Below are positions 850 through 16,510 of a stretch of DNA of 64,000 bases, in pieces; positions within the stretch are counted from its first letter, which is position 1; every line of letters begins with the position of its first letter. The DNA comes from Roseovarius sp. MMSF_3359 (GTDB taxonomy: Bacteria > Pseudomonadota > Alphaproteobacteria > Rhodobacterales > Rhodobacteraceae): positions 1-64,000 of the forward strand of contig NZ_JASHJC010000006.1 of the NCBI RefSeq assembly GCF_030733385.1, in the 5' to 3' direction. The notes beneath the pieces were generated by a model, which worked only from the letters and a program-made list of their open reading frames with translations, was not told the origin of the DNA and made no database searches. Made by a program: the position numbers and the translations under genes.

Positions 850-1926
850 ATGATCGATCAAGATCGTCTGGTGACTGAGTTAAACAAAGGATGGGTCTAC
901 GCGAGTGATCCATTGGTCTTTTTTCGCGGTTACGACAGTTTTTCCGAGTTTCTCAGAACGGCCGAAAGCTTTGATCCAATCCGACTATTGAAGCACTATG
1001 AGCAGACCATCACTCACAAGACCCAGCCAAATGACCAAGTGTTGCGTTTTCAGCTTCTTAGAATGGCCCGCCAGAAGGGAGACGAAGTTGGCACTGAAGA
1101 CTTCTATCGTTTCGCGGATGATTTGGTGTCGAGACGTTGCGTCACAAATTTCGACGAGAGATCTGTAAACTTTTTGGCCTACCAAGGGACTATTTCACGT
1201 GGTGACGACGTGTTTGCGGCATTGCGGAAGGATATTAGTCGGCCTAACCAAGAACTTCGAATCCGTCGAAAGCTTCTTCGGGTGTTCGACAGGTTCGACG
1301 ATCAGAACAAGAAAACTTTCTTTGGAAGCCTGCTTGGAAATGATGGAAGGGGCACCAAACTCTTCGATGCTATCAGCAGTATACACCATCAAGTCATTGA
1401 CAACATCGATCATTGGATGGACTACCCACAGAACCCAAACAAGACAGAGCGGAACCAGAAACTATTTGGAGACACTCTCGTATTTCGTGTGTCGAGAATT
1501 TCCTACTCAACGCACCTTCAGACAAGCTTTGCTAACCAAAGCCCAGATTTGCGCGGTTACCTTTCCAGTCATGCGGAGCTTACAGGTAGACAGGAAACTC
1601 GGTTTTGGAAGTTAGACTACTTCGATAATGGCAGGGGGATTGTTGAAAACCTTAGGCAGTTTGGGCGTTTCCCGAGCACTGAGTTCACACTCAAAGATGC
1701 AATAGAACAAAATCTTTCGATCCGCGGGGACGTTGGACCTGAGCGGAGAAAGGGAGAAGGATACTCAATTGTAATTGATGAGGCTAGGAACGTAGCCGGA
1801 TATGTGTCAATCCATTCGGGTGGAGAACGGGTCTTCATTTCACCTCAAACAAACTCTCAATTGGTCAGCGAACCTACTACGGAGTTCAAGTTTGGCACCC
1901 ACTTGAGCCTTATTTTTCCAGGATAA
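850..1926 (+). CDS. GHKL-type ATPase domain protein, possible conflict-system component
   Basis: A 358-residue soluble protein from ATG 850, preceded by GGGAG; longer in-frame starts back to 778 have no better ribosome site. The C-terminal third looks like a GHKL (gyrase/Hsp90/histidine kinase/MutL) nucleotide-binding domain. It has DNGRGI at about residues 259-264 (DxGxG box), KGEGYS at about 301-306 (G2-like glycine box) and a final FGTHLSLIFP strand (GT box). A possible N box (HHQVIDNIDHW) lies about 75 residues before the DxGxG box, an unusually long gap. The N-terminal 170 residues are charged, mostly helical and unrecognised. No histidine-kinase dimerisation helix or transmembrane segment is seen, so this is probably not a sensor kinase. 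The next gene starts 5 bp after the stop, implying co-translation. Function is unknown; a regulatory or remodelling ATPase for its partner is my inference. Confidence 0.6.
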   Translation: MIDQDRLVTELNKGWVYASDPLVFFRGYDSFSEFLRTAESFDPIRLLKHYEQTITHKTQPNDQVLRFQLLRMARQKGDEVGTEDFYRFADDLVSRRCVTNFDERSVNFLAYQGTISRGDDVFAALRKDISRPNQELRIRRKLLRVFDRFDDQNKKTFFGSLLGNDGRGTKLFDAISSIHHQVIDNIDHWMDYPQNPNKTERNQKLFGDTLVFRVSRISYSTHLQTSFANQSPDLRGYLSSHAELTGRQETRFWKLDYFDNGRGIVENLRQFGRFPSTEFTLKDAIEQNLSIRGDVGPERRKGEGYSIVIDEARNVAGYVSIHSGGERVFISPQTNSQLVSEPTTEFKFGTHLSLIFPG

Positions 1927-1931
1927 TTTGA

Positions 1932-4214
1932 GTGAAGTTTGTTCAGATTCAAGAGGTAGGTATTGGGGAGCTGGTTCCTACTGAACCGGTTCTGAAGCGA
2001 TCTCTAAAACACGCGATCAATTCTCTCTACGAAAGGCTACGCAACGAAAATGTAGACTTTGCATCCGTAAGCTCCGCATACTTTCGGCTGGATCCGTCGA
2101 TCAATTGGAGTTCGCACCGCAAAGTACTCATGGAGGTAGCGTATTCACTTCGAAAGTTGGCGAGCAGCCGATTTCCAAAAGCGCAATGCTACTTACTGTT
2201 TTGTGCAGACTTTGAGCATCACCTTACAACGATGAACGGCAAAGTGCCACCTAACGAAGCCAGTTTGATCACTGATCTTCGTGAAGAAGAACTGCGAAAA
2301 CTAGCCAATGAATCGGGCGCATTGTACGAAGGCAACCGGTTCCACTTCTTCAGGTTGCCGTCCGGTCAAACAGCAGACTTCTTCCTACGTACCGGCAACT
2401 GCTTGGCCAGGCGGGAATCCTTGCACATTCTGGCCTTTTGGGCGCTACCAAGTTTAGAGACAACCAATCTAATAATTTGTGACACTTGGAGCATATCCAC
2501 TCTGGGCATGTACCTTGCTAGATTGGCCGAACAATACACAGGAAGACGATATGATTGCCAATACCTGTCCAAGTACCTTAGCGAAGACATTGCCTCGTCC
2601 AGCGAAGTACTAGAACTGCTCGAGCAGGCTTCAGACGGCCGCATCGCACCGATTTTCCTCGTCAGCGCTCTTTCAAGCGGCAGAAGCCTTCGCACCTATG
2701 TGGAGGCGTTCGGCACGTTGTTTGAAGATGAAAAACCTTCTGTTGTCACAGTCTATTTGCTAGGCCAAAGTTTAGCCCCCGATTTGGAAGCTAGCATTGA
2801 CGTACTTGTGCTGTGTAGTCTGGCGGATATCCTCGAAGCGCGAGGTCTTCATGGCTTAGTAGATGATGTCAGTCTGGAAGAAGGGCAAAAGATCTTCACG
2901 ATTGATGCGCAGACCTACTTTCCTCGATATTTTGAGCCAAAGGAACATCGGTTCACTCCGAGCAAATTCACGGCGAAGTCAAAACAGTTTTTTGAAACTT
3001 ATGCTGGATACCAGATTTTTTCTGTTTGCAAAGATGGCTCTTCGAACACAAAGCTCAATTTGCGGCGACACCATGCGTTCCATGTAGACATCCTTAAGCT
3101 GGTGTCGTCTAGTGAGTTTCGGGTGAGAATTGCAAAGCTTGTCAAATCACTCGACCGTCCGACACACATCGTTCATCTGAAGAAACCTGCGGATGCAAGG
3201 TTCGCCCAAGTCGTATCTGAGTGCTTTCCTGACGATTCACCGATCGATTTGATTGAATGCTCGGGATATCGGCGTATTCCTAAGAGGCAAGACATCCTAC
3301 GGGTTCTTGCGGACCCAAACGCCAACGTCTGGTTCCTCGATGCAATGTACATTAGCGGTCAAAGCACTGCTCAAGACTTCGAACAAGGGCTTCGGTCTGG
3401 ACTAAGTACGCAAGGTTTGAGCGAGTATCCGTCGAGGATCTCTTTTCTGGTGGGACTTTTGCGTCCAGACCTAAGTGCAAAAATCACCAGCGACAACGGG
3501 ACGATGATAAGACTCAGCTGCCCTACTAGGCACGGGGAAATCGTTGTAAACTCTGTTGAAGAGGTTTTGCTTCCAAATTGGGATCACACACAATGCCCTT
3601 GGTGCAAAGAGCGCGAATTACATACCCTCCTTTTGTCAAAGCATGCTCTGGACGGTATGTCAGGAAAGGAGAAGGCATACATTGAAGGTCGTTTGACACT
3701 CCTCGCGGAAGGCCGGCGTCAGGGATTAAGGAACAACCTTTTCTTTAAGCGATATCCTGAACACCAGTTCGAATTCAACAAAGGTTCTTTGTGGTTCGAC
3801 TGGTCAGTTGTGCGAGAAAAGGGGCTATCCGAGTCGGAGGCGGACATAATGCTCGCGGTTGCATCTGCGTTACAGTATTGGCGCGATGATTACGGTTCTA
3901 AGACTCCTGCTCAATACCTGCTGGATCAGCAATCGTGTTTTGGCGTCAACGTATACAATGAGTCCTTTCTTCGCGCTGCAATATGGCGATCCTTGAAGCG
4001 GCGCGAAGTGGATACATTTCTGAACGATAGTTACCGAAAAGAGTTGTTAGTGCGAGTTTTCGACGCCGGCGGGGCCGCCGATGCGACGGACGAGTTCGTT
4101 TTGGGTTGGGAGGCCTCCAAGCTCTTGGGGCGCTATTTGCCAAGGGTCATTGGCAAGGATCGGTTTGATGCAATCGACTGGAACTACCTAAAGTGGACAT
4201 GCCTAGCAATCTAA
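1932..4214 (+). CDS. Large protein with two degenerate phosphoribosyltransferase-like segments and a CxxC motif
   Basis: A 760-residue soluble protein starting at GTG 1932, 5 bp after the GHKL gene. Two segments resemble the type I PRTase fold. The first is about residues 137-320: an OPRT-like stretch FRLPSGQTADFF, then NLIICDTWSIS, then FLVSALSSGRSL at 242-253 in the position of the PRPP-binding loop. The second is about 407-520, with VWFLDAMYISGQSTA at 466-480 in the equivalent loop. The classic acidic pair of the PRPP loop is missing in the first copy and only one Asp (D470) remains in the second, so catalysis is doubtful; ligand binding is possible. CPWC at 555-558 with a nearby His could hold a metal. 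The C-terminal 180 residues are unrecognised. Tight linkage to a GHKL ATPase and proximity to a helicase and an RNA-repair island suggest a conflict or stress role, by inference only. Confidence 0.5.
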   Translation: MKFVQIQEVGIGELVPTEPVLKRSLKHAINSLYERLRNENVDFASVSSAYFRLDPSINWSSHRKVLMEVAYSLRKLASSRFPKAQCYLLFCADFEHHLTTMNGKVPPNEASLITDLREEELRKLANESGALYEGNRFHFFRLPSGQTADFFLRTGNCLARRESLHILAFWALPSLETTNLIICDTWSISTLGMYLARLAEQYTGRRYDCQYLSKYLSEDIASSSEVLELLEQASDGRIAPIFLVSALSSGRSLRTYVEAFGTLFEDEKPSVVTVYLLGQSLAPDLEASIDVLVLCSLADILEARGLHGLVDDVSLEEGQKIFTIDAQTYFPRYFEPKEHRFTPSKFTAKSKQFFETYAGYQIFSVCKDGSSNTKLNLRRHHAFHVDILKLVSSSEFRVRIAKLVKSLDRPTHIVHLKKPADARFAQVVSECFPDDSPIDLIECSGYRRIPKRQDILRVLADPNANVWFLDAMYISGQSTAQDFEQGLRSGLSTQGLSEYPSRISFLVGLLRPDLSAKITSDNGTMIRLSCPTRHGEIVVNSVEEVLLPNWDHTQCPWCKERELHTLLLSKHALDGMSGKEKAYIEGRLTLLAEGRRQGLRNNLFFKRYPEHQFEFNKGSLWFDWSVVREKGLSESEADIMLAVASALQYWRDDYGSKTPAQYLLDQQSCFGVNVYNESFLRAAIWRSLKRREVDTFLNDSYRKELLVRVFDAGGAADATDEFVLGWEASKLLGRYLPRVIGKDRFDAIDWNYLKWTCLAI

Positions 4215-4451: not shown

Positions 4452-7007
4452 TTACAATCTTGGGTCGACTGGCTCACTTTCCAACGCAAGCACTGCCAAT
4501 GCGCACTCGTGCACCTTGGAAAGTGGAAACCCTTCAACAAACCTATGCAGCCCTTCAAAACCGAGTTTAAATTCCCGTTCTGCAAGCGAGAATTTGCGGC
4601 CCAGCCCGCGCTGCCGGAGGCGCTCAATATTCTCAGGCAGGTCATAGTCGGGACCATATATTATCCGAAGATAGTCACGTCCGCGCACTTTCATTGCAGG
4701 TTGGATCAGACCTTTGTCGCCACGCAGGATAAATGCGTTGGGTTTGAACACCAGCCCTTCCCCTCCCGAGCCAGTGTGTTTCATCCACCAGTCAATGACC
4801 GTCTCGCGATCAGCCGCATTATTCAGGTCAATGCGTTTCCAGCCGGTCGTTTGCAGGATCGGATCGGTGGCGGCCAATTTTCCCAGAGTTTCCATATGCC
4901 AGGTATGGGGCTGATCCACATAAACCATGCCTTCGCTCGCCAGGATGTGGAACGGCGCTATGCGGTAGTCCTCAATAATGTCCGCTGCCCAGCAGTACCC
5001 GTCGATTGTCTGTCCCATGAGTTCCGCGTTGGAAAACTGGGTTTCTGCACGCGCGCTCAACGCATCCAGCCCATCGATTTCCCCAGCTTTGGAAATTGCC
5101 TCGAGCAATGCCGAAGCGGATGATTTTGCCGCCGTCACCGTTGGCAGGTATTGCCGTTTGAGCAACTCCTGCGCCTTGGCAGACCAGGACATAAGTTCAG
5201 CGTCAAGAAGCACCCAGTCGGTCTGAAGTTCTTCCCACAGATCCGCTGAATGCATTGCATTTCCAATTCGCGCAACAACTGCGGCTTCTTCGGACTCGTC
5301 CTTGAAGAAGGGTCGCCCGGTACGCGTATAGTTCACGCCTGCTTTGCCGTCTTCCACGCCAAATCGGGCCTTTGCGGCGTCCGCATCCTTGGCGACCACC
5401 AACAAGGCACGCGATCCCATGTGTTTTTCTTCGACAACCAGGTCGGTCACACCCCGGCTAGCGAAATGGTCCATCGCCTGATTGGGATGTTCCAGAAAAG
5501 GGCCTTCTGGTGCCGTTGGGCATGCGGCCATCGTGGGCGGCAGATAGATCAGCCATCTGGGATCAACGGCAAAACGGCTCATGACCTCCAGCGCGGCAAG
5601 ACTGTTTTCTTCGGGAATTTGCAAGGTGGATTTGAACCGTGTTTCGATTCGCATCTTGGTTGCATAATCGTCGAAATAAAGCAGACGGTCATGATCCTGT
5701 TGTGCGGACAGGGATTGGTCAGCATCCCAAGGTTTTGCGGGGATCGCATATTGCATTTTCGCAGGAACGGAAACCGTTTCTCGCTCGGGCCACCGCAATG
5801 CGGTAAGCTTGCCGCCAAAAACACATCCCGTGTCGATGCACATGGTGTGGTTCAGCCATTCGGCCTCGGCCATTGGCGTGTGGCCAAAAACGACATCCGC
5901 CTTGCCACGGTAATCGCGCGCCCATTCCAAACGCACGGGCAGGCCAAACTCATCAACCTCGCCAGTTGTCTCGCCGAACATCGCGAAATTACGTACATGA
6001 CCGGAGCCGCGCCCGTGCATTTCTTCTTTCAGGCCGGCGTGGGCAATGACCAGCTTGCCATCGGCCAACCAGGCATGAGAGCGCAAATCCCAAATGAAGT
6101 CCGAGACCCGTCTGCGGAAGGTCTCCGAGGTTTTTTCAAGCTCAGCGACGGTCAGATCCAGACCATGTGCCTGTGTCACATTCCGGCCCTTCAGCCATTT
6201 GTTCAGCTTGAAGTCGTGATTGCCAATCACGCAGCGGCCAGAGCCTTCATCGCACATGCCCATGACAAGGCGCAAAGCATCCAGATTGCGCGGACCCCGG
6301 TCCGTGATATCACCGACAAAGAACGCCGTACGGCCTTCCGGATGACGGGCGCGGATCAGGTCCTCGGAACCGGTTTCGAATGGGTCTATCACATATCCGA
6401 GATTTCCAAGCAATTCGGTCAATTCATCAAAGCAGCCGTGAATGTCACCGATGATGTCAAAGGGACCATGATCAGTGCGGTTGTCCGTCCATAGGGGTTC
6501 ACGCACAATCTCCAGCGCATCCACTTCCTCGGGGGATTTCATGATCTGAACTTGACGGAAGCCCTCTTTCTGCAAACCGCGCACGCCTCGTCTGAGTGAC
6601 TTGGCATGATTGCGTGCCACGTGTTCCCCAAAGTCGCGGTTAGGGCGGTTTTGATTGCGTTCATGGCAAATCTTGGGGTCGATATCGAGCACCAGCGCCA
6701 CAGGCAACGCATGATATTTGCGTGCCAGCTGCACGAGCTTTGCCCGATCCTCGCGTTTCACTGATGTGGCATCAATAACGGTCATCAACCGGCGCTTCAG
6801 CCGAATGGATGCCGTGTAATTGAGCAGATCGAAAGCATCGCCCGTCGCGGCAAGATCGGTTTCATCGTCCGAAACAATCGCCCGGCAGGCATCAGAAGAC
6901 ACAATCTCGGTTTCCAGAAAATGCTTGCGCGCAAAGCCGGACTTGCCCGAGCCGGTGGCGCCGATCAGAACAACAAGAGCAAAATCGGGGATGGAAATCT
7001 TGGTCAT
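4452..7007 (-). CDS. pnkp: Pnkp: RNA 5'-kinase / 3'-phosphatase / ligase
   Basis: An 851-residue trifunctional RNA-repair enzyme, about the usual length for bacterial Pnkp. Domains in order: an N-terminal kinase with P-loop GATGSGKS (16-23); a metallophosphoesterase with GDIHG (187-191), GDITDRG (232-238), GNHD (262-265) and GHTP (375-378) metal-ligand motifs; and a C-terminal nucleotidyltransferase/ligase with EEKHMGSR, where K528 is the expected adenylylated lysine. With Hen1 it heals and seals broken RNA, classically tRNA cut by ribotoxins, and the sealed site gains a 2'-O-methyl. Its ATG overlaps the stop of the upstream nucleotidyltransferase gene (ATGA), so it is the translationally coupled last gene of the rsr-RNA-rtcB-hen1 operon. 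The end converges on the PRTase-like gene with a 237-bp gap. Confidence 0.95.
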   Translation of the reverse strand: MTKISIPDFALVVLIGATGSGKSGFARKHFLETEIVSSDACRAIVSDDETDLAATGDAFDLLNYTASIRLKRRLMTVIDATSVKREDRAKLVQLARKYHALPVALVLDIDPKICHERNQNRPNRDFGEHVARNHAKSLRRGVRGLQKEGFRQVQIMKSPEEVDALEIVREPLWTDNRTDHGPFDIIGDIHGCFDELTELLGNLGYVIDPFETGSEDLIRARHPEGRTAFFVGDITDRGPRNLDALRLVMGMCDEGSGRCVIGNHDFKLNKWLKGRNVTQAHGLDLTVAELEKTSETFRRRVSDFIWDLRSHAWLADGKLVIAHAGLKEEMHGRGSGHVRNFAMFGETTGEVDEFGLPVRLEWARDYRGKADVVFGHTPMAEAEWLNHTMCIDTGCVFGGKLTALRWPERETVSVPAKMQYAIPAKPWDADQSLSAQQDHDRLLYFDDYATKMRIETRFKSTLQIPEENSLAALEVMSRFAVDPRWLIYLPPTMAACPTAPEGPFLEHPNQAMDHFASRGVTDLVVEEKHMGSRALLVVAKDADAAKARFGVEDGKAGVNYTRTGRPFFKDESEEAAVVARIGNAMHSADLWEELQTDWVLLDAELMSWSAKAQELLKRQYLPTVTAAKSSASALLEAISKAGEIDGLDALSARAETQFSNAELMGQTIDGYCWAADIIEDYRIAPFHILASEGMVYVDQPHTWHMETLGKLAATDPILQTTGWKRIDLNNAADRETVIDWWMKHTGSGGEGLVFKPNAFILRGDKGLIQPAMKVRGRDYLRIIYGPDYDLPENIERLRQRGLGRKFSLAEREFKLGFEGLHRFVEGFPLSKVHECALAVLALESEPVDPRL

Positions 7008-7828
7008 GCTGCACCCCCCACGAAAGCTCTGCCATTTACGATTTGCCGCAACAATTCGTCGCCTTCTGCCATCAAGTCCGACCGTTCTTCCTCTTTTGCC
7101 ACGACTTCAGCCCAAGCAATCTGATCGTGAATGAAAGCATCAATCATCGGAATACGCGCGCCACGCCCTATTTCCTTGGCTGCAGATTTAAGGACCAGAA
7201 GCCGTTCAATATGTTCGATGAGTTCCCGACCCAGAGACTGTCCCTGGACCAGCGCCTGCAGGTTCATAGGTGGCTGTACCGCTGGGTTTTGCCTGATCCA
7301 TGAAATCGCCAGAGCGGGCCGCAGGATGTAGAAGTATTTTTTCAAAGACACATCTGGGTTGTTCCCGACATGCTTGTCCCATTGCTTAACCGCTAGGTTG
7401 CGATAGTGATGCAGGCAGCTTTCGCCAAATGTGGTTTTGTCCGCAAATTGGATCAGACGGTCACAGACCGCATCATTCCAGCGATACCGGATCGGGCTCG
7501 ACAGCCATTCCAGCATCACCGGATTGGGTTTGATCAGAAGGCCAAGCGCTTTGCGAATATCCCAGCCGTTGATGTCCCAGTCGCCTTCGATGGGCAGTTC
7601 TATGACATCGCGACCGGGCTCAATGCTGAGATACCAGTCAGGTTGGCGGGCATAGATGAACCGCACATCGTAATCGCTGTCGGGCGACGGAAATCCCCAG
7701 GCACGGCTGCCGCTTTCGATGGCAAAGAGGATACGCACACCATGATCGGCCTCCAAGGCAGTTAGCTTGGATTGAATGATCGCTTCGATATCCGGCGCTA
7801 CGGATGGGACAAAAACAGGCAGGCTCAT
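7004..7828 (-). CDS. Nucleotidyltransferase-domain protein of the RNA-repair operon
   Basis: A 274-residue protein of the MNT-like / DNA polymerase beta-type nucleotidyltransferase superfamily. The signature is near the N-terminus: IESGSRAWGFPSPDSDYDVR (about residues 38-57) holds the GS helix and the paired acidic metal ligands DSDYD. The rest is helical. It overlaps hen1 upstream and pnkp downstream by 4 bp each (ATGA both times), so the three products are probably made in fixed proportion. Such proteins (COG3541-like) accompany Pnkp/Hen1 in other bacteria, but their substrate is not established as far as I know. Adding nucleotides to trimmed RNA 3' ends before ligation is an attractive inference only. 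Confidence 0.85.
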   Translation of the reverse strand: MSLPVFVPSVAPDIEAIIQSKLTALEADHGVRILFAIESGSRAWGFPSPDSDYDVRFIYARQPDWYLSIEPGRDVIELPIEGDWDINGWDIRKALGLLIKPNPVMLEWLSSPIRYRWNDAVCDRLIQFADKTTFGESCLHHYRNLAVKQWDKHVGNNPDVSLKKYFYILRPALAISWIRQNPAVQPPMNLQALVQGQSLGRELIEHIERLLVLKSAAKEIGRGARIPMIDAFIHDQIAWAEVVAKEEERSDLMAEGDELLRQIVNGRAFVGGAA

Positions 7829-9222
7829 ACGGCATCCTCCTGTTTGAACACAGCCATCTGCGATGGGCCGCCATGGGTGTCGTCAACCGGCCCCAACGGC
7901 GTGAAACTGACGCTATAACCATGTTCTTCAGCCACCTTATTGGCCCAGCTTTCGAATTCCGCCCGGGTCCATTCGAACCGGTGATCCGGATGGCGCAGTT
8001 TGCCGTCCTTCAGACCGTCGAACAGCACATTATATTCGCGGTTGGGTGTCGTCATCACCACCATGCGCGGACGGGCATCGGCAAAGAGCGACAAAACAAG
8101 CGCCGACAAGCGGTGTGGTTCGATATGTTCGATCACCTCGACCAGCGTTGCGGCATCAAAGCCCTGCCAACGCCGGTCCCCATAAGTCAGGCTGCCCATT
8201 TGTAGTCTGACTCGCTCAGCCATGGCGTCCCCGGCCTGATTGAGCCGCAGCTTGCGATGCGCCGCCTCCAAGGTTCTCACTGACGCATCCACGCCAACAA
8301 TGCGCGCCAGCCCGCGTTCCTTGATCAGCCGCGACATCAGCTTGCCTTCACCGCATCCCAAATCAAGAACCGAAGTGACATTGTTCTGCCTAAGCACCTC
8401 TGCCACCGTATCCAACCGCAACGCATGCAAGCGCAATGGCTTTTCAAGCTGCTCTTCAGGCTTGATCTTCGGAGCTTCCTCCGGTTCTTCTTCCTGCGGC
8501 GCCGTCTCTTCGAGGCGGGTAAGGGCCATATTCATCAATGATCTACGATGCTTCAAGGCGCGCCGTGTGATGAGTTGCTTGTCCGGATGCTCGGACAACC
8601 ATCCGTCACCCTTCGCTAGAAGCTTGTCGATCTCTTCTTCGCTGACATAGTAATGCTTGAAGTTGTCCAGGACGGGCATCAGCACATAAAGATGCTTGAG
8701 AATGTCCGCGAGGCGCAGTGTTGCGGCCAGACGCAGATCGACAACCTGCGCTTCGCCGATCTCTGACGGTGAGAGTATGGAATAGCCCAATGGCTCGAAC
8801 AAACGTTTGACCAGGTTCAGATCACCCGACAAGGCGACAGGCACAACGCGGATTTCGAACCGGAGCGCACGGTCCGCCAGAGCCTGTCGATCCTTCGATT
8901 TCCCAGCTATCGTCTGGGCAAAGGCCCGCCCCATCGCGACCGACAGAAATGAACTTGCCGCAAAAGGGCGGTCATTCACATATTGCGCCAGTAGACCATC
9001 GCTGTGCCGGTTTTTTCCACGCACCAGGCCGACCGGATCGACATCGAGATGCATCACAGCTGTTGTCCGGTCTTGAGATTTTTCCGGATAGAAAATCGTG
9101 ACCTCACCGACCGACGTATCTCGTGTATGCATGTGGTCAGGATGCTTGTGCAGCAAGAATCCAAGATCACTCGCGGCGTAATCAGCATCATCGGCTGCGG
9201 TAAGAGTAATTTCGATCTGCAT
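7825..9222 (-). CDS. hen1: Hen1: 3'-terminal RNA ribose 2'-O-methyltransferase
   Basis: About 465 residues from ATG 9222; an upstream in-frame TTG at 9237 is less likely because bacterial Hen1 begins near the MQIEITLT strand. The N-terminal half is the Hen1-specific ligase-activating domain, starting with ASDLGFLLHKHP. The C-terminal half is a Rossmann methyltransferase with SAM loop LDLGCGEG (about 286-293), the metal-ligand block EVIEHIEPH (about 362-370) and TTPNREYN. In the Pnkp/Hen1 pathway this enzyme methylates the 2'-OH at the break before sealing, protecting the junction from being cut again. A charged Glu/Pro-rich linker (about 242-262) joins the halves. The stop overlaps the start of the nucleotidyltransferase gene. 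Confidence 0.94.
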   Translation of the reverse strand: MQIEITLTAADDADYAASDLGFLLHKHPDHMHTRDTSVGEVTIFYPEKSQDRTTAVMHLDVDPVGLVRGKNRHSDGLLAQYVNDRPFAASSFLSVAMGRAFAQTIAGKSKDRQALADRALRFEIRVVPVALSGDLNLVKRLFEPLGYSILSPSEIGEAQVVDLRLAATLRLADILKHLYVLMPVLDNFKHYYVSEEEIDKLLAKGDGWLSEHPDKQLITRRALKHRRSLMNMALTRLEETAPQEEEPEEAPKIKPEEQLEKPLRLHALRLDTVAEVLRQNNVTSVLDLGCGEGKLMSRLIKERGLARIVGVDASVRTLEAAHRKLRLNQAGDAMAERVRLQMGSLTYGDRRWQGFDAATLVEVIEHIEPHRLSALVLSLFADARPRMVVMTTPNREYNVLFDGLKDGKLRHPDHRFEWTRAEFESWANKVAEEHGYSVSFTPLGPVDDTHGGPSQMAVFKQEDAV

Positions 9223-9322
9223 AATGTGGTCAATCAAGAACGCTTTGAAGTTTAAGGCTTAAATGTCGATTTGGGCGGATACAAGGCGGCGAATTCGTTC
9301 TGTGTTCAAACTGGAGCCTAAC

Positions 9323-9336
9323 GCCCATGAATGGGC
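9323..9336 (-). other. Short stem-loop between rtcB and hen1
   Basis: GCCCAT and ATGGGC with a 2-nt gap form a perfect 6-bp palindrome in the 132-bp rtcB-hen1 spacer. No T-run follows on the minus strand, so it is not a standard terminator. It may mark an RNA processing point or limit read-through into hen1. Confidence 0.35.
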
Positions 9337-9354
9337 TGCAAAGGTCGCCAGTGA

Positions 9355-10770
9355 TTACCGGCGGCCTTTCTTCTTGTTTTTCCAGAACGGCGGCACATCT
9401 CCTGCCATGATGCAGCCGTAAGGGTCGATATAGTCTTCGATCTCGGCCAGATCATAAGATTTGATCTGGGCAACCACATTGTCGGCGTTCTTGTAGCTCG
9501 ACGGCAGCTCCGACGCGTCCACGCCACCGGCGTGAAAGCGCACGTCCAGACCTTCGGTTTCCGCCTTCAGCATCTGCTCAGGCGTGACCGATCCCATCCG
9601 GCGTTTATGCTCGGAACGCGAATAGTTGCGCCCTGCACCATGCGGGCTGAAGCCCAGACCATGATCGGCGTCCTTGCCACGCACAACGAGTACGGGTTCG
9701 GACATGTTCAGCGGAATGAGCGTGAGCCCTGTCGCATCCGAGGCGTATCCATCCCAGGCAGGGGTCGCGCCCTTGCCATGGTAATAGATATCGCCCCGCT
9801 TGAAGACGAAGTTGTGCTCGTTCCAGAACCGCTCGCCCACATCACCCACGCGCGCGGCCTCGACCGTTGCTTGGTGGATGGCGTTGTGGTTGGCCTTGGT
9901 CCACTTACGGATCAGCTGCAGTGCCTCCCAATAGTCACGACCTTCCTCAGTATCTGCCGGGATCCAGGCATTCTGCTTGGCAGTCTCGGGCGACAGTTCT
10001 TTGCGGAACTTCTCGGCCACATGCATCCCATGCTTATACAAAACCGCCCCCGGTCCGCGCGACCCGTGGTGGGTCACGATCGCGGTCCGTCCGGTTTTGC
10101 GCGAGCGTCCGACAAACAGGAAGTGGTTCCCGTCTCCTTGTGTGCCCATGTGCTCCTGCGCCATGCGCAGGGATTTCGGGTTGTCCAGAAACCGATTTTC
10201 GCGAAACGCATCCATCAGCTTCATCGAGGTCGTAAACCGCTGGCCCTGAGGCCGACCGCCGGGCCCGAAATGCGTGACCGACTGGGCCGCATCCAACACA
10301 GCCTTGGGATCGGCATTGCCCAGATCGGTGATCATGACCGAACAGCAGATGTCAGCCGAGTGCATCCCCGGATGGATCGCATTACGCGCCGCTGCCACAC
10401 CCCCAACCGGGATGGTGCCAACAGGCCCAGCCGGACAGGCATCGGGCATGATGGCTCCCGCCTCAATTGTCGGCGTGCGCATCAGAGCGGTCATGGTTTC
10501 GCGTACCTTGTCGACATTGTCTTCCTCGTCCGGATGATCCATGTCGATGTTTTCATGAAACGGCACTTCACCGGGCGCGCGCAGGTCCAGCGTCACCGGA
10601 GCGGGAGGAATCTCGCCCTCCAGTTCCTGCCGGATACGCACCAGTCCGAACCCTTCGGTGCGCATCTCATTCGCACGCGCCAACAGCGCCGGGAATTGCT
10701 TGCCGGGGCGATGCCCCCATTCCTTCAGGTGTTCACCGGTAATCGGGTAGTTTGTGTTTTCGCTACTCAT
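9355..10770 (-). CDS. rtcB: RtcB-family RNA ligase (copy 1, divergent type)
   Basis: 471 residues; a 3'-phosphate/5'-OH RNA ligase using GTP and Mn2+. Conserved blocks are present but altered from the classic enzyme. HSADICCSV (137-145) replaces the usual DIGCGM; C142 or C143 should be the metal cysteine. GTQGDGNHF (209-217) replaces GTLGxGNHF, and THHGSRG (233-239) replaces HSGSRG. KGATPAWDG and SPHGAGR (H377 as the expected guanylylated histidine) are clear. It lies directly after the Y-RNA/tRNA array and 118 bp before hen1-NT-pnkp, so one operon carries two chemically different sealing routes. A small hairpin at 9323-9336 lies in the rtcB-hen1 gap. The start codon has no strong ribosome-binding site, so translation may depend on processing of the RNA array upstream. 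Confidence 0.92.
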   Translation of the reverse strand: MSSENTNYPITGEHLKEWGHRPGKQFPALLARANEMRTEGFGLVRIRQELEGEIPPAPVTLDLRAPGEVPFHENIDMDHPDEEDNVDKVRETMTALMRTPTIEAGAIMPDACPAGPVGTIPVGGVAAARNAIHPGMHSADICCSVMITDLGNADPKAVLDAAQSVTHFGPGGRPQGQRFTTSMKLMDAFRENRFLDNPKSLRMAQEHMGTQGDGNHFLFVGRSRKTGRTAIVTHHGSRGPGAVLYKHGMHVAEKFRKELSPETAKQNAWIPADTEEGRDYWEALQLIRKWTKANHNAIHQATVEAARVGDVGERFWNEHNFVFKRGDIYYHGKGATPAWDGYASDATGLTLIPLNMSEPVLVVRGKDADHGLGFSPHGAGRNYSRSEHKRRMGSVTPEQMLKAETEGLDVRFHAGGVDASELPSSYKNADNVVAQIKSYDLAEIEDYIDPYGCIMAGDVPPFWKNKKKGRR

Positions 10771-10794
10771 CTATCCATCTCACTCTAACATCGG

Positions 10795-10922
10795 TCACGG
10801 CGACAAGGGGTTGGTGAAACATTTTCAACTGCTCTATCCAACTGAGCTACATCGCGGAATGCGATGGCGGGGCTCGAACCCGCGACCAGGTGATTATGTA
10901 GTTCCACCGGCATTCGCCGTGA
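10795..10922 (-). ncRNA. Y RNA with circularly permuted tRNA module (copy 1)
   Basis: 128 nt. The outer stem TCACGGCGA pairs with TCGCCGTGA, and the inner stem GGTGGAAC pairs with GTTTCACC. The bulge carries GGCGAATG and CCTTGTC, close to the bacterial Ro60-binding motifs (GNCGAAN0-1G and CNUUGANC, from memory). The apical part is a tRNA in swapped order. The 3' half comes first, with T stem GCGGG/CCCGC around TTCGAGC and then acceptor strand CATCGC. A 5-nt loop ATTCC follows, then the 5' half GCGATG-TA with a D arm GCTC...GAGC. The acceptor stem is therefore a closed hairpin (10850-10866), and the anticodon region opens into the Y stem. This matches the architecture of YrlA-type Y RNAs, with near-native tRNA sequence. 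It cannot be aminoacylated because it has no free acceptor end. Confidence 0.85.
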
Positions 10923-10931
10923 TATTTCGGG

Positions 10932-11009
10932 TCCGGAGGACAAGAGGTTCGTGAGAGGCCTTTCGGCGGTTCGTTTCAAGCGATGTACTCCCACGGGCAT
11001 TCCCCCGGA
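10932..11009 (-). ncRNA. Short Y RNA (copy 2)
   Basis: 78 nt. Outer stem TCCGGGGGA/TCCTCCGGA (9 bp with one G-U), GAATGCC/ACCTCTTGT internal loop, inner stem CGTGGGAG/CTCTCACG. Both stems differ in sequence from the other copies yet stay paired, so the structure is under selection. The apical part is not tRNA-like; it has a small hairpin GCC-GAAA-GGC with a GNRA loop. It probably binds the neighbouring Ro60 protein without a tRNA-like effector module. Confidence 0.75.
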
Positions 11010-11027
11010 TGCTTTCCTTTCATTCTT

Positions 11028-11102
11028 TGGCTCGGCTGGCAGGGATCGAACCTGCGACATCCTGATTAACAGTCAGGCGCTCTACCGCTGAGCTACAGCC
11101 GA
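11028..11102 (-). tRNA. tRNA-Asn(GUU), complete cloverleaf with encoded CCA
   Basis: 75 nt. Acceptor TCGGCTG/CAGCCGA pairs perfectly, followed by discriminator G and CCA. D stem GCTC/GAGC; anticodon stem CCTGA/TCAGG with loop CTGTTAA (anticodon GTT); 5-nt variable loop; T stem GCAGG/CCTGC with loop TTCGATC. It is a fully foldable tRNA embedded in an RNA-repair operon. Its acceptor differs from the tRNA-Asn I expect in this group, so it is probably a second, specialised copy. tRNA-Asn(GUU) is a known target of anticodon nucleases such as colicin E5, so a decoy or reporter role is possible (inference). Confidence 0.88.
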
Positions 11103-11118
11103 ATATGTTCTCTTGATC

Positions 11119-11162
11119 GCTATTCCATACGGGAAACCGTTTTCCACTTTCCCCGGAATAGC
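11119..11162 (-). ncRNA. Long hairpin between RNA units
   Basis: GCTATTCC (minus strand, from 11162) pairs perfectly with GGAATAGC (to 11119), and an inner GGGAAA/TTTCCC pair stacks inside with a G-rich/A-rich loop. No T-run follows on either strand. It lies between Y copy 3 and the tRNA-Asn. It could be a processing spacer or a further small RNA; it lacks the Y-RNA core motif. Confidence 0.5.
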
Positions 11163-11169
11163 TCTGTGG

Positions 11170-11325
11170 CCCCGGCGACAAAGGAGAAGAAACAACCCGG
11201 GACCCGCCCCGCATCCGAATGGGTGGATGCGTTTGCCGTCTGGGCGCCTGCAAGGAGGGGAGTTGAACCCGCTCGGTGTACCCCGGAAGGGTGCTGCAAT
11301 GTAGTTCCTTCGGCATTCGCCGGGG
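11170..11325 (-). ncRNA. Y RNA with degenerate tRNA-like module (copy 3)
   Basis: 156 nt, the longest copy. Outer stem CCCCGGCGA/TCGCCGGGG, GAATGCC and CTTTGTC bulge, inner stem GAAGGAAC/GTTTCTTC. The inner stem covaries with the other copies (GGTG/CACC there, GAAG/CTTC here). The apical module has a T-arm-like GCGGG-TTCAACT stretch with imperfect pairing and an extra hairpin GCATCC/GGATGC reminiscent of a long variable arm, so a class II tRNA (Leu/Ser type) origin is possible. The swapped-half arrangement is less clear than in copies 1 and 5. Confidence 0.7.
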
Positions 11326-11338
11326 TTTTCTTGATAGT

Positions 11339-11468
11339 ATGGCGACAAGGGGTTGATGAAACAATTTGCCCGGTGCTCTGCATATTTGAGCTATACGCCG
11401 CATCGGCGCAACGTGGTCGCTAACCGCGCATCTCCGGGGTGGACTGTAGTTCCATCGGCATTCGCCAT
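11339..11468 (-). ncRNA. Y RNA with permuted tRNA-like module (copy 4)
   Basis: 130 nt. Outer stem ATGGCGA/TCGCCAT, GAATGCC/CCCCTTGT bulge, inner stem GATGGAAC/GTTTCATC. In the apical part an acceptor-like hairpin ACGTTGC-(6 nt)-GCGGCGT (11395-11414) joins a decayed T-arm region to a 5' half with D arm GCTC...GAGC. The order again is 3' half, closed acceptor, 5' half. The T arm pairs poorly, so this copy seems to have drifted furthest from tRNA while keeping its Y stem. Confidence 0.72.
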
Positions 11469-11492
11469 TTGTTTCCTTTCATTCATTTCATC

Positions 11493-11567
11493 TGATGTGC
11501 CCGATGGGGATCGAACCCACGACGCACCGCTTAAAAGGCGGTTGCTCTACCACTGAGCTTCGGGCGC
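11493..11567 (-). tRNA. tRNA-Lys(UUU)-like gene with altered ends
   Basis: Acceptor GCGCCCG against CGGGCAC has one C-A mismatch at the second pair; the 3' end reads A-TCA instead of CCA. D stem GCTC/GAGC; anticodon stem ACCGC/GCGGT with loop CTTTTAA (anticodon TTT); T stem GTGGG/CCCAT with loop TTCGATC. The core is intact but the acceptor end is damaged, so charging would need CCA repair, or the RNA serves a non-coding role. It begins 3 nt after the end of Y copy 5, implying a shared precursor. tRNA-Lys(UUU) is the classic target of the anticodon nuclease PrrC. Confidence 0.8.
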
Positions 11568-11570
11568 GTG

Positions 11571-11696
11571 CCCCGGCGACAAGGTGTTGGTGAAACGAAC
11601 CTGCTCTACCTGACTGAGCTACATCGCAACGCGATGGCGGGATTCGAACCCGCGACACGGAGATTATGATCTGTAGTTCCACCGGCATTCGCCGAG
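11571..11696 (-). ncRNA. Y RNA with circularly permuted tRNA-Met-like module (copy 5)
   Basis: 126 nt. Outer stem TCGGCGA/TCGCCGG, GAATGCC/ACCTTGT bulge, inner stem GGTGGAAC/GTTTCACC. The apical tRNA is permuted. The 3' half has ATCATAATCT (CAU-like anticodon context), T stem GCGGG/CCCGC around TTCGAAT and acceptor CATCGC. A 3-nt loop GTT follows, then the 5' half GCGATG-TA with D arm GCTC...GAGC and AGGTT. The last pairs with AATCT to rebuild a 5-bp anticodon stem that leads into the Y stem. The closed acceptor is at 11622-11636. The 3' half resembles elongator tRNA-Met. Copies 1 and 5 share the acceptor stem, so one is probably a duplicate of the other. Confidence 0.87.
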
Positions 11697-11764
11697 ATTT
11701 TTCGCATTTAAGGCAAGCAGCGCGGTATAAGGTCCCGCCCATGCCAGAGAGCGCCCGCAAGAGT

Positions 11765-11820
11765 GACGGAGTCGAACCGCCAAGTTCCTCTGGTCGTGCC
11801 CCCGCACTGTCTGCGCTAAA
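11765..11820 (-). ncRNA. tRNA-like remnant (T arm plus D-arm-like hairpin)
   Basis: A T arm GGCGG-TTCGACT-CCGTC (11765-11781) and a hairpin CGCA/TGCG (11803-11815) in D-arm position are visible, but I find no matching acceptor strands or anticodon stem. No Y core motif flanks it. It is probably a decayed tRNA copy or another module fragment within the array. Confidence 0.45.
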
Positions 11821-11855
11821 CGCGATGTTCTTTCCTTTTTTGTTTCGTTTCGGAT

Positions 11856-11932
11856 GGGTCAGGCGGACAAGTCTGATTGTGAGACGGCGACATTACCTAA
11901 AAATGTAGTCCCACAGGCATTCCGCCTGACCC
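11856..11932 (-). ncRNA. Short Y RNA (copy 6), adjacent to the Ro60 stop codon
   Basis: 77 nt. Outer stem GGGTCAGGCGGA/TCCGCCTGACCC is 12 bp and perfect. GAATGCC and CTTGT form the internal loop; the inner stem TGTGGGAC pairs with GTCTCACA. The apical loop holds a small ACATT/AATGT hairpin. It starts 4 nt after the Ro60 stop codon, which is the classic position for a Y RNA next to its protein. It has no tRNA-like part. Confidence 0.83.
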
Positions 11933-11936
11933 TCTT

Positions 11937-13666: not shown

Positions 13667-15229
13667 ATGAAGAACGTGGTCATCGGCTTTCTCGGAACCC
13701 AGTTGGATATGGGCAAGAAAAGGCGTTGGAAACCGACACCTAGCCTTGTCAGCCATGATCACTTCAAGGTGGATCGGCTCGAGATTCTCTATGACATGCG
13801 ATTCAATCGTCTAGCCAAGCAGGTTCAGCGTGAGATCGAGGAAACGTCACCTGAGACGGAAGTGTTGCTTCAGCAGCTTGACCTGAACGACCCGTGGGAT
13901 TTTCAGGAGGTCTATGGCAAGCTGTTCGACTTCGCGCGGTCCTATGGGTTTGACGATGAACGCGAACGGTACCATGTGCATCTGACCACCGGGACACATG
14001 TGGCGCAGATCTGCTGGTTCCTGCTGACGGAAAGCCGCCATGTACCAGCGCGACTGATCCAGACCGGCCCACCCGGACCGGATGAGGAGGTGCCAAAGTT
14101 CGATGTCATCGACCTGGACCTGAGCCGCTATAACGCACTTCAGCAGCGCTTCGATCAGCTGTCGCGGGAACATAGCGACCAGCTGAAGGGTGGGATCGAA
14201 ACACGCAATACAGAATACAACGATCTGATTGACAGGGTTGAGTTGGTCGCCAGCAATTCCGACGAACCTATCCTGCTGCTCGGCGAAACCGGCACTGGAA
14301 AGACCGAACTGGCCGAGCGAATTCATAGCCTCAAACTCGATCGACGCCGCGTCAAAGGCCGTCTGGTCCACGTGAATTGCGCAACATTGAACGGGCCAGA
14401 TGCCATGGCGACGCTTTTTGGTCAGCGCCGCTCTTACCTTGGGGCGGCAGGGACTGAACGCAGCGGGTTGTTGCGCGAAGCGGATGGCGGTGTCCTGTTT
14501 CTGGATGACGTGGACGAGTTGAACACCAACATGCAGTCGGTTCTGCTGCATGCGATTGAAACCGGGCGGTTTTATCCACTGGGGTCCGACCACGAAATCT
14601 CAAGCCGGTTTCACCTGATCGCCGGGGCAAACCGAGATCTGCGTGGTCTGACGGCTTCTGGACAGTTTCGCCCTGATCTGCTGGCCCGGCTGAACACATG
14701 GAGCTTCACGTTGCCCGCGCTGCGCAATCGCACCGAGGATATCGAAGCAAATCTACTGCACGAGCTGGATCGCTGCGAAAGAGATTTGGGCACACATGTC
14801 GGTTTCAACTCCGATGCCCGCGCCCAATATCTGGCCTTCGCCAAAGACCCGGGCACCCATTGGCCGGGAAACTTCCGTGACTTCTCGGGCTCGATCCGTC
14901 GTTTGTGCACGCTTGCACCACGCGGGCGGATCACAAGGGCGATGGTCGCGACCGAAATCGAAACGCTTCAAACTGATTGGAAATCGGCCCAGTCGAATGA
15001 TGATTTCAAGCTGGTTGCAGATGTGATGGGCGACGCCGTTTCTGATGTGGATCCGTTTGATCTTGTTCAGCTGGCCGAGGTGATCCGGACCTGCCGCAAG
15101 TCTTCAAGCCTAAGCGCCGCCGGGCGCGCCTTGTTTGCCGTGTCGCGCAGCAAACGAAAAACCCAGAACGATGCAGATCGGCTGCGGAAATATCTTGGAA
15201 AGTTTGGTTTGGAGTGGGGTGCAATCTAG
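13667..15229 (+). CDS. rtcR: RtcR: CARF-AAA+ transcription regulator of RNA repair, GAFTGA loop replaced
   Basis: 520 residues. The N-terminal about 180 residues form the CARF-like sensor (IGFLGTQLDMG, YHVHLTTGTHVAQICW), which in enteric RtcR responds to tRNA-derived RNA fragments. The central AAA+ domain has Walker A GETGTGKT (206-213) and Walker B VLFLDD (276-281). The C-terminal helix-turn-helix lies at about 455-515. Where sigma-54 activators carry GAFTGA, this protein has SYLGAA (residues 257-262, after LFGQRR). Without that loop it may not open sigma-54 promoters; NtrC of Rhodobacter capsulatus is a known precedent for activation of sigma-70 promoters without the loop. It is divergent from rsr and probably controls that operon. 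Confidence 0.93.
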   Translation: MKNVVIGFLGTQLDMGKKRRWKPTPSLVSHDHFKVDRLEILYDMRFNRLAKQVQREIEETSPETEVLLQQLDLNDPWDFQEVYGKLFDFARSYGFDDERERYHVHLTTGTHVAQICWFLLTESRHVPARLIQTGPPGPDEEVPKFDVIDLDLSRYNALQQRFDQLSREHSDQLKGGIETRNTEYNDLIDRVELVASNSDEPILLLGETGTGKTELAERIHSLKLDRRRVKGRLVHVNCATLNGPDAMATLFGQRRSYLGAAGTERSGLLREADGGVLFLDDVDELNTNMQSVLLHAIETGRFYPLGSDHEISSRFHLIAGANRDLRGLTASGQFRPDLLARLNTWSFTLPALRNRTEDIEANLLHELDRCERDLGTHVGFNSDARAQYLAFAKDPGTHWPGNFRDFSGSIRRLCTLAPRGRITRAMVATEIETLQTDWKSAQSNDDFKLVADVMGDAVSDVDPFDLVQLAEVIRTCRKSSSLSAAGRALFAVSRSKRKTQNDADRLRKYLGKFGLEWGAI

Positions 15230-15266: not shown

Positions 15267-16510
15267 TTATTCGGCGGCTATATCTTGTATGCGGCCTTCT
15301 AGCCCCGACGCATGCGCAGCCACCTTTGGGTCGGCGCTATTGGCCAAAAGCCAACCCTGAATCTGTGCAGGGCTGTGTTTTTGACCTCCTAACCGCTGTT
15401 CGAAAACCGACGCCAAATCATCTTCACCGGGGAAGAAGCGTTCAAACAGGCGGCGGGCTGTAGCCGCGTTTACCATTCCAAGTTCGGTGTGCACGTCGGC
15501 GCGGCCGGGTCGGATCAGGGCCGGGTCCAGCTTTTCCTTGTGGTTCGTTGTCATAACCAGGGCACGCCCTTCCTGAGCTGCGACGCCGTCGATGGCATTG
15601 AGCAAGCCCGAGAAGCTGACGCCCGAGCGTTTCTCGCCACCTTCGCGCTGCGTAAACACAGCGTCCACATCCTCGATTGCGATCAGCGACCCCTTGGGGC
15701 ACACATCATCGCTTCACGCAGATCATCATCCGTCAGCGTGACGCGCCCGATATCCAGCGACGCGATATCCAATGACAGGTCTGACGCCAGCGCGCGAATG
15801 AGGCTCGACTTGCCCGTGCCCGGAGGGCAGTAAAACAGATACCCACGCCGCCAGGGAACACCACGTTCCGCGTACCAGTCGCTAGCTCTATAGAACCAAC
15901 GCATGTCCTCCAGCACTTTCTCGATGCGATCGTCATCCACCAGCACCGTGTTGATGGAACGGCGTGGGACATCGCCGACATGATCCCACCAATCCCCCTT
16001 CAGAATATGGAGGCCAGGGCCGATGCGATCCCTGGTCTGGGAAAGTGCGCGTCCCTCGGCGATCCAGCCCAGTATCGTCTCGACCTTTCCGAAAAGAACG
16101 GTGACGTTCAGCACTTCCATTGGCCGCTGGTTGTGCGATGCGCCCACTTTTGACTTTTCATTGATGTCGCGCCCCAGACGACAGATTTTCCCTCGCCAGA
16201 AGAACCAATGCTGGCCCGGTGCGGGCGCATAGCCCTTTGTTCCCCGTGCCCATTTCCCATCCGTCATACGCACATGGCGCGAATGGGACAGAACGTTGTT
16301 CTGCTCCATCCAGATACAGAAATGGCGATAGGCGGCGCTCCGGTTGTCGAGTGTCAGGCTCACCCAGACGCGCCGAACAATCACACGGTACAGGGCCATG
16401 AATGCGACGCGTAGAAAGGCTGCCGCGACCCCAAATGCCCCGAGCGCCACGTCGCCCGCGAAAAAATCGCTGGTCAGGGCGCTGGTCAGGAATTGATCGA
16501 ATGCGTCTAT
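15267..16510 (-). pseudogene. BCS1-like AAA+ ATPase, frameshifted
   Basis: Two reading frames together give one BCS1-type AAA+ protein of about 410 residues. The upstream part (16510-15683) has a hydrophobic N-terminus, the BCS1-specific region and Walker A PPGTGKSS. The downstream part (15704-15267) has Walker B SLIAIEDVDAVF, MTTNHKEKLDPALIRPGRAD and the lid. They are joined by a missing base in the run at 15691-15700 (after MMCAP; the next frame continues KGSLIAIED). The frame extends 20 residues above the GTG at 16450 to an ATA at 16510 (KIDAFDQFLTSAL), which looks like the true N-terminus with its start codon lost. It directly follows prfH and ends facing rtcR. It may be dying, expressed by frameshifting, or a sequencing error. 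Confidence 0.8.

Follow-up and report, generated by a model that had tools for sequence, protein, structure and literature searches.

The first genes of a draft-genome contig from Roseovarius sp. MMSF_3359 raise the question of whether two closely spaced reading frames, here called A and B, form a functional unit, and if so, of what kind. The stretch of DNA that was analyzed (the window) is 64,000 nucleotides long, and it begins at the first base of contig C34, which belongs to a 4.5-Mb draft genome. A first-pass annotation, made from the letters alone, had described the two genes as a coupled GHKL ATPase and double phosphoribosyltransferase (PRTase)-like protein and had proposed that they were a candidate for an undescribed conflict module. 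Searches of Pfam and NCBIfam returned no family that matches A or B, and a sequence search of the PDB with the pair gave matches at the level of chance.

Gene A (positions 850-1926, + strand) encodes a protein of 358 amino acids; its start codon is ATG at 850, or GTG at 778, and its stop codon ends at 1926. Gene B (1932-4214, + strand) has a GTG start and encodes a protein of 760 amino acids. Both open reading frames are intact and co-directional, with 5 nucleotides between them, and the pair is AT-richer than its surroundings, with a GC content of 0.47-0.49 compared to 0.51-0.66 in the remaining genes of the window. On both points the initial description was accurate.

The pair is related to a listed defense candidate

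The claim that the pair is undescribed did not survive, as PADLOC-DB already lists relatives under the name PDC-M65, a two-gene candidate. The PDCs are putative defense candidates that were obtained by a guilt-by-embedding approach, and most of them are without validation (PMC12988326). None of the papers searched names PDC-M65. With PADLOC, protein B matched PDC-M65B in partial stretches (E 5e-20), and the PDC-M65A model (PDLC04764) gave no hit to the window A protein. The A homologs at four loci with a PDC-M65B-matching B (L019-L022) do match PDC-M65A, with E values from 1e-15 to 1e-37, and independent profiles showed that the window A is homologous to these PDC-M65A-type proteins (E 2e-4 to 3e-8). 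When the profiles were built from other lineages only, A (E 3e-8) and B (E 8e-45) were the top matches among the 362 open reading frames of the window.

The window pair also has A directly upstream of B, which is the arrangement specified for PDC-M65; the two-gene order is identical and the sizes are similar (the PDC-M65 models have 398 and 763 amino acids). The difference is one of clade and of motifs. In the B tree, the window protein groups with Rhodobacteraceae-type proteins and the L051 protein, apart from the PDC-M65 main clade, with a support of 0.998. The A tree agrees with the B tree except for L051, whose placement in the A tree has poor support. The sister clade also differs by a Gln in place of Glu in the N-box of A, and by a half-kept second loop and a CPWC motif in B, which are described below. 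The pair is therefore best called a divergent variant of PDC-M65, a candidate that is already listed and mechanistically unexplained, and a sister clade of PDC-M65 exists that the current detection models miss.

A and B are inherited as a unit

Homologs were searched for using B, the PDC-M65B model, and an alignment as queries. They were present in 4 of 295 other genomes of the family, 4 of 384 other genomes of the class, and 6 of 397 other genomes of the phylum; the search of the order gave 3 of 390 genomes, all three of which were already in the family set. Close relatives of B were found in genomes named Tabrizicola, Pseudotabrizicola, and Frigidibacter, and further homologs are carried on plasmids of Rhizobium, Pantoea, Pseudomonas, Cupriavidus, Burkholderia, Spirosoma, and others. 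Members of the main clade occur on plasmids and on two viral contigs. Queries from the window clade found none on the plasmids and viral contigs, none of the phage GenBank records encodes relatives of the pair, and scans of viral sequences with the single proteins gave no matches.

The coupling of the two genes held in every case, with A located directly upstream of B on the same strand at all 23 of the 23 loci that have a recognizable B. The A-B junctions range from -53 to +6 nucleotides, with one larger value in Spirosoma, where B is split into two annotated reading frames. A is split at L052 and B at L050, and one further locus (L011) has fragments of B only, without A. Conversely, each strong match to the A profile across 398 genomes was in a genome that also has B. 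The A and B distance matrices were correlated (r=0.88, a value reached by 0 of 2000 permutations), and dN/dS was 0.05-0.11 for both genes within the Tabrizicola-like clade, where several of the dS values are saturated. Taken together, the constant pairing, the matrix correlation, and the low dN/dS demonstrate that A and B are co-inherited as a unit under purifying selection.

Gene A encodes a GHKL-superfamily protein

Protein A consists of a helical N-terminal half followed by a C-terminal GHKL (Bergerat-fold) domain. In profile-profile comparisons, A aligned to the CheA-type HATPase_c with a probability of 95.7% (E 1e-8), in agreement with its initial designation as a GHKL ATPase, while an orotate PRTase (OPRT) control showed no match to the A profile. 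The columns that are kept in nearly all A homologs are the Bergerat-fold motifs. By alignment, these are the N-box, Q181-xxx-N185 (1390-1404); the G1 box (DxGxG), D259-N-G-R-G263 (1624-1638), in which the D and both G residues are invariant; the G2 box (GxG), G302-E-G304 (1753-1761); and the GT motif, G349-T350 (1894-1899), all on the + strand. The AlphaFold (AF2) model of A was poor, with a pLDDT of 43. The remaining matches to the A profile across the 398 genomes were weak, and the three that were checked were all histidine kinases with a HATPase_c domain. In the profile alignment with anti-sigma kinases, similarity was found at the level of the N-box only.

A hydrolytic GHKL protein has a catalytic Glu four residues before the N-box Asn, and in the window A this position is occupied by Gln181. 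The alignment places Q-xxx-N in the window protein, the Tabrizicola-like proteins, and L051, and E-xxx-N in most of the others. Judging from the motif, the substitution of the base in the window subclade may leave ATP binding without hydrolysis.

Gene B encodes a tandem of diverged PRTase folds

Protein B is composed of two diverged PRTase folds in tandem and a conserved C-terminal helical domain. Domain 1 (approximately residues 130-290; 2319-2801, + strand, boundaries approximate) contains the OPRT-like motif LPSGxxxDxFxRxGN, and its best Foldseek hits are OPRT and UMP synthase; its profile matches to OPRT are at the motif level (E 0.03), and the model is of low confidence in this region. 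Domain 2 (approximately residues 349-559; 2976-3608, + strand) is modeled well over residues 390-470 or so (pLDDT 77-89, compared to 52 for B overall). When residues 349-559 were compared to hypoxanthine-guanine PRTase (HGPRT) structures using VIA-align, the Z score was 10.5, and 328 chains had a Z of at least 8. Foldseek with B ranked the orotate PRTases best, with PyrR also among the hits. The two halves of B align to each other in register as an internal repeat (E 2e-4). The type I PRTase fold is thus recognized in domain 2 by structure, and in domain 1 by the Foldseek OPRT hits, the motif, and the internal repeat only.

Active type I PRTases have an acidic pair in the PRPP loop, and this pair is not present in either loop of B. 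At the first site (SALSSG, 2664-2681), the pair is missing in 23 of the 23 aligned B proteins, all of which have ISASxSG or a similar sequence. At the second site (DAMYISG, 3339-3359), one acidic residue remains; most homologs have VAxAxxxG here, the window B has LDAMYISG, and L051 has LDDVFITG. Across the aligned homologs, the PRPP loop has therefore eroded fully at the first site and to varying degrees at the second, and the fold searches and the alignment agree with the earlier description of two PRTase-like segments with eroded loops. The CxxC motif that had been noted is CPWC at residues 555-558 (3594-3605). It is specific to the subclade, being seen in the alignment only in most of the window clade (L008 has CPWK) and in the divergent L051.

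In comparison to the orotate and hypoxanthine-guanine phosphoribosyltransferases, B shares the fold of its domains and, in the first half, the OPRT-like SG motif, but the acidic pair is missing or half-kept, the domains are in tandem, and a helical C-terminal domain has been added. The regulatory PRTases of the PyrR type are similar in that PyrR reuses the PRTase fold for ligand sensing. PyrR keeps its PRPP loop and binds RNA. In B the acidic pair of this loop is lost or half-kept, and no evidence of PyrR-like RNA binding was found. The strongest signature of B is in its C-terminal helices, [FY]N[DE]xxxxAxxxRxxxxxE, which in the window protein reads NExxLRAAxWRSLxxxE (3957-4007) and is among its most conserved stretches. 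No toxin, nuclease, or membrane domain was recognizable in B.

Homologous pairs are located in defense islands and mobile elements

The neighbors of the homologous pairs, surveyed as a list of cases without a background of random loci, include many known defense genes of varied kinds, and so the defense setting that was originally suggested for the pair is borne out. On the Pseudomonas aeruginosa plasmid pBJ86 (L040, 8779-19485), a PDC-M65-like pair is located immediately 5′ of a qat operon. On a viral contig (L053, 1222-9498), the genes after A and B, on the same strand, encode a STAND NTPase and SIR2 (PDC-S25). Elsewhere the pair adjoins SIR2 and a short pAgo (L050), a Lamassu-like LmuA (L044), or an AbiLi/AriA-like ATPase (L022), and is found inside or beside type I restriction-modification genes (L021 and L048), next to TIR and ThiF/multiubiquitin genes (L043), or next to a DpdF-like helicase and a ResIII/PLD protein (L008). 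Mobile-element genes were also observed near the pair, namely the conjugation genes TraC/TraD of an ICE at L046 and strawberry-notch/DUF7146 genes at L009. One copy is flanked by thyX and dgt. Homologs that stand singly in housekeeping contexts, or proteins lacking the GHKL and PRTase folds, would have spoken against a conflict module, and neither was found.

In the window itself, the pair lies behind the C-terminal part of a helicase (1-576, + strand), which had been described as UvrD-like. The fragment is real, and it is the tail of the Gabija helicase GajB, as its relatives pair with GajA. The end of another contig of the same genome (C22:442500-454467, L121) carries pieces of GajA and a 104-residue N-terminal piece of GajB, followed by IS3-type sequence that is 94% identical to an IS3-family element. 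In the source genome, gajA is in several frames and gajB is split between C22 and C34, so that both components of Gabija are present but broken. The two contigs are likely to be joined at this point because they hold two complementary pieces of the only gajB detected, and the window pair would then follow a Gabija operon that was broken by an IS3-type element. The helicase was ruled out as a third member of the module: GajA is the partner of its close relatives, and the A-B loci that were examined do not have it as a constant neighbor.

Possible function of the pair

Our data indicate that A and B probably constitute one candidate defense module, a GHKL protein with a degenerate double PRTase, directed against mobile elements and most likely against phages. 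No anti-phage assay on any member of the family was found, and among the papers searched, the only one to combine GHKL ATPase, phosphoribosyltransferase, and anti-phage was a survey of jumbo phages, which is on other proteins. A figure in the DefensePredictor paper lists a validated PRTase system (PMC13092281), which may or may not belong to the A-B family.

How such a module might operate can be outlined tentatively. A would be an ATP-controlled conformational switch that binds ATP, possibly with slow hydrolysis or phosphotransfer. B would not perform the standard PRPP transfer; rather, its PRTase clefts would bind a nucleotide-like ligand and thereby sense infection. The A-B complex would be inactive in normal cells, a change in the ligand during infection would release it, and the conserved C-terminal domain of B would then deliver an output that stops growth, this being the least supported step of the proposal. 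These switch-and-sensor steps, taken alone, are doubtful in their details. In a more specific version, the GHKL protein, once loaded with ATP, would control a tandem PRTase that has lost catalysis and gauges a nucleotide or another PRPP-like metabolite that phage replication disturbs, possibly via phosphorylation of the Ser-rich former PRPP loop; this version is rather unlikely to be right as worded. If it is true, worn-down enzymes of nucleotide metabolism under GHKL control would be a new bacterial route of infection sensing. The folds and the pairing give PDC-M65, as a listed candidate, a biochemical hypothesis that can be tested.

The same motifs could be read differently. A might be a GHKL protein kinase, similar to SpoIIAB or CapK, that turns B on or off by phosphorylating a conserved Ser, for example in the ISASxSG loop. 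As in kinases, the GHKL domain of A is at the C-terminus, and it is not followed by a transducer domain; the A profile is closest to the histidine-kinase HATPase_c, the N-box E-xxx-N-xxx-H recalls the anti-sigma kinases, and the loop serines of B are nearly invariant. CapK, which also has a C-terminal GHKL domain and is part of a gene pair at defense loci, phosphorylates CapS and so controls immune operons (PMC13373217). However, CapK is an HTH-STAS-GHKL protein with a STAS-wHTH partner, whereas the partner of A is a double PRTase, no HTH or STAS domain was found in the window pair, and the A profile aligns poorly to anti-sigma kinases; a kinase switch of this type is considered unlikely. The graded second loop bears on a possible enzymatic role, in which domain 2 of B would retain transferase or nucleosidase activity, a nucleotide signal would be its product or its substrate, and A would activate it. 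L051 retains the canonical loop, one acidic residue is retained in the window B, and the loop Gly is largely retained, but the VAxAxxxG of most homologs lacks the pair that binds PRPP, and we regard residual catalysis as quite unlikely.

That the hydrolytic Glu of GHKL is retained in most homologs, and that several neighboring genes act on DNA, would suit a clamp of the MORC or MutL type that is driven by ATP and acts on invading DNA, with B as its loading or regulatory partner, and prokaryotic GHKL (paraMORC) proteins near restriction-modification genes are known (PMC3710099). The C-terminal position of the GHKL domain without a transducer domain, together with the failure to recognize any DNA-binding domain, makes a clamp very unlikely. 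Finally, PRTase folds and GHKL domains are common in metabolism and signaling, and the copy flanked by thyX and dgt would fit a metabolic or stress module for nucleotide-pool regulation that travels on mobile elements. Given the sporadic distribution of the pair and its repeated closeness to many unrelated defense systems, such a role outside of defense is highly improbable.

Other genes of the window

The RNA-repair island beside the pair is genuine and consists of Pnkp, RlaP, Hen1, and RtcB-like genes (4452-10770, - strand) and a Ro60-like gene of the same set. It was ruled out as a part of the module, since it converges on B from the opposite strand and no such genes were noticed at the homologous loci that were examined.

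The RtcB-like gene is separated from the Ro60-like gene by an array of tRNAs and Y-RNA-like genes (10794-11936, - strand). YrlA scored above the threshold twice (10794-10920 and 11570-11695), and weak matches were seen to a third YrlA (11336-11468) and to YrlB (11856-11932). The array also contains tRNA-Asn, tRNA-Lys, and six copies of a 33-nucleotide repeat. A probable RtcR-type regulator (13667-15229, + strand), divergent from the Ro60-like gene, would complete the island. It is followed by a putative BCS1-like AAA ATPase (15267-16450, - strand) that is apparently split into two overlapping reading frames.
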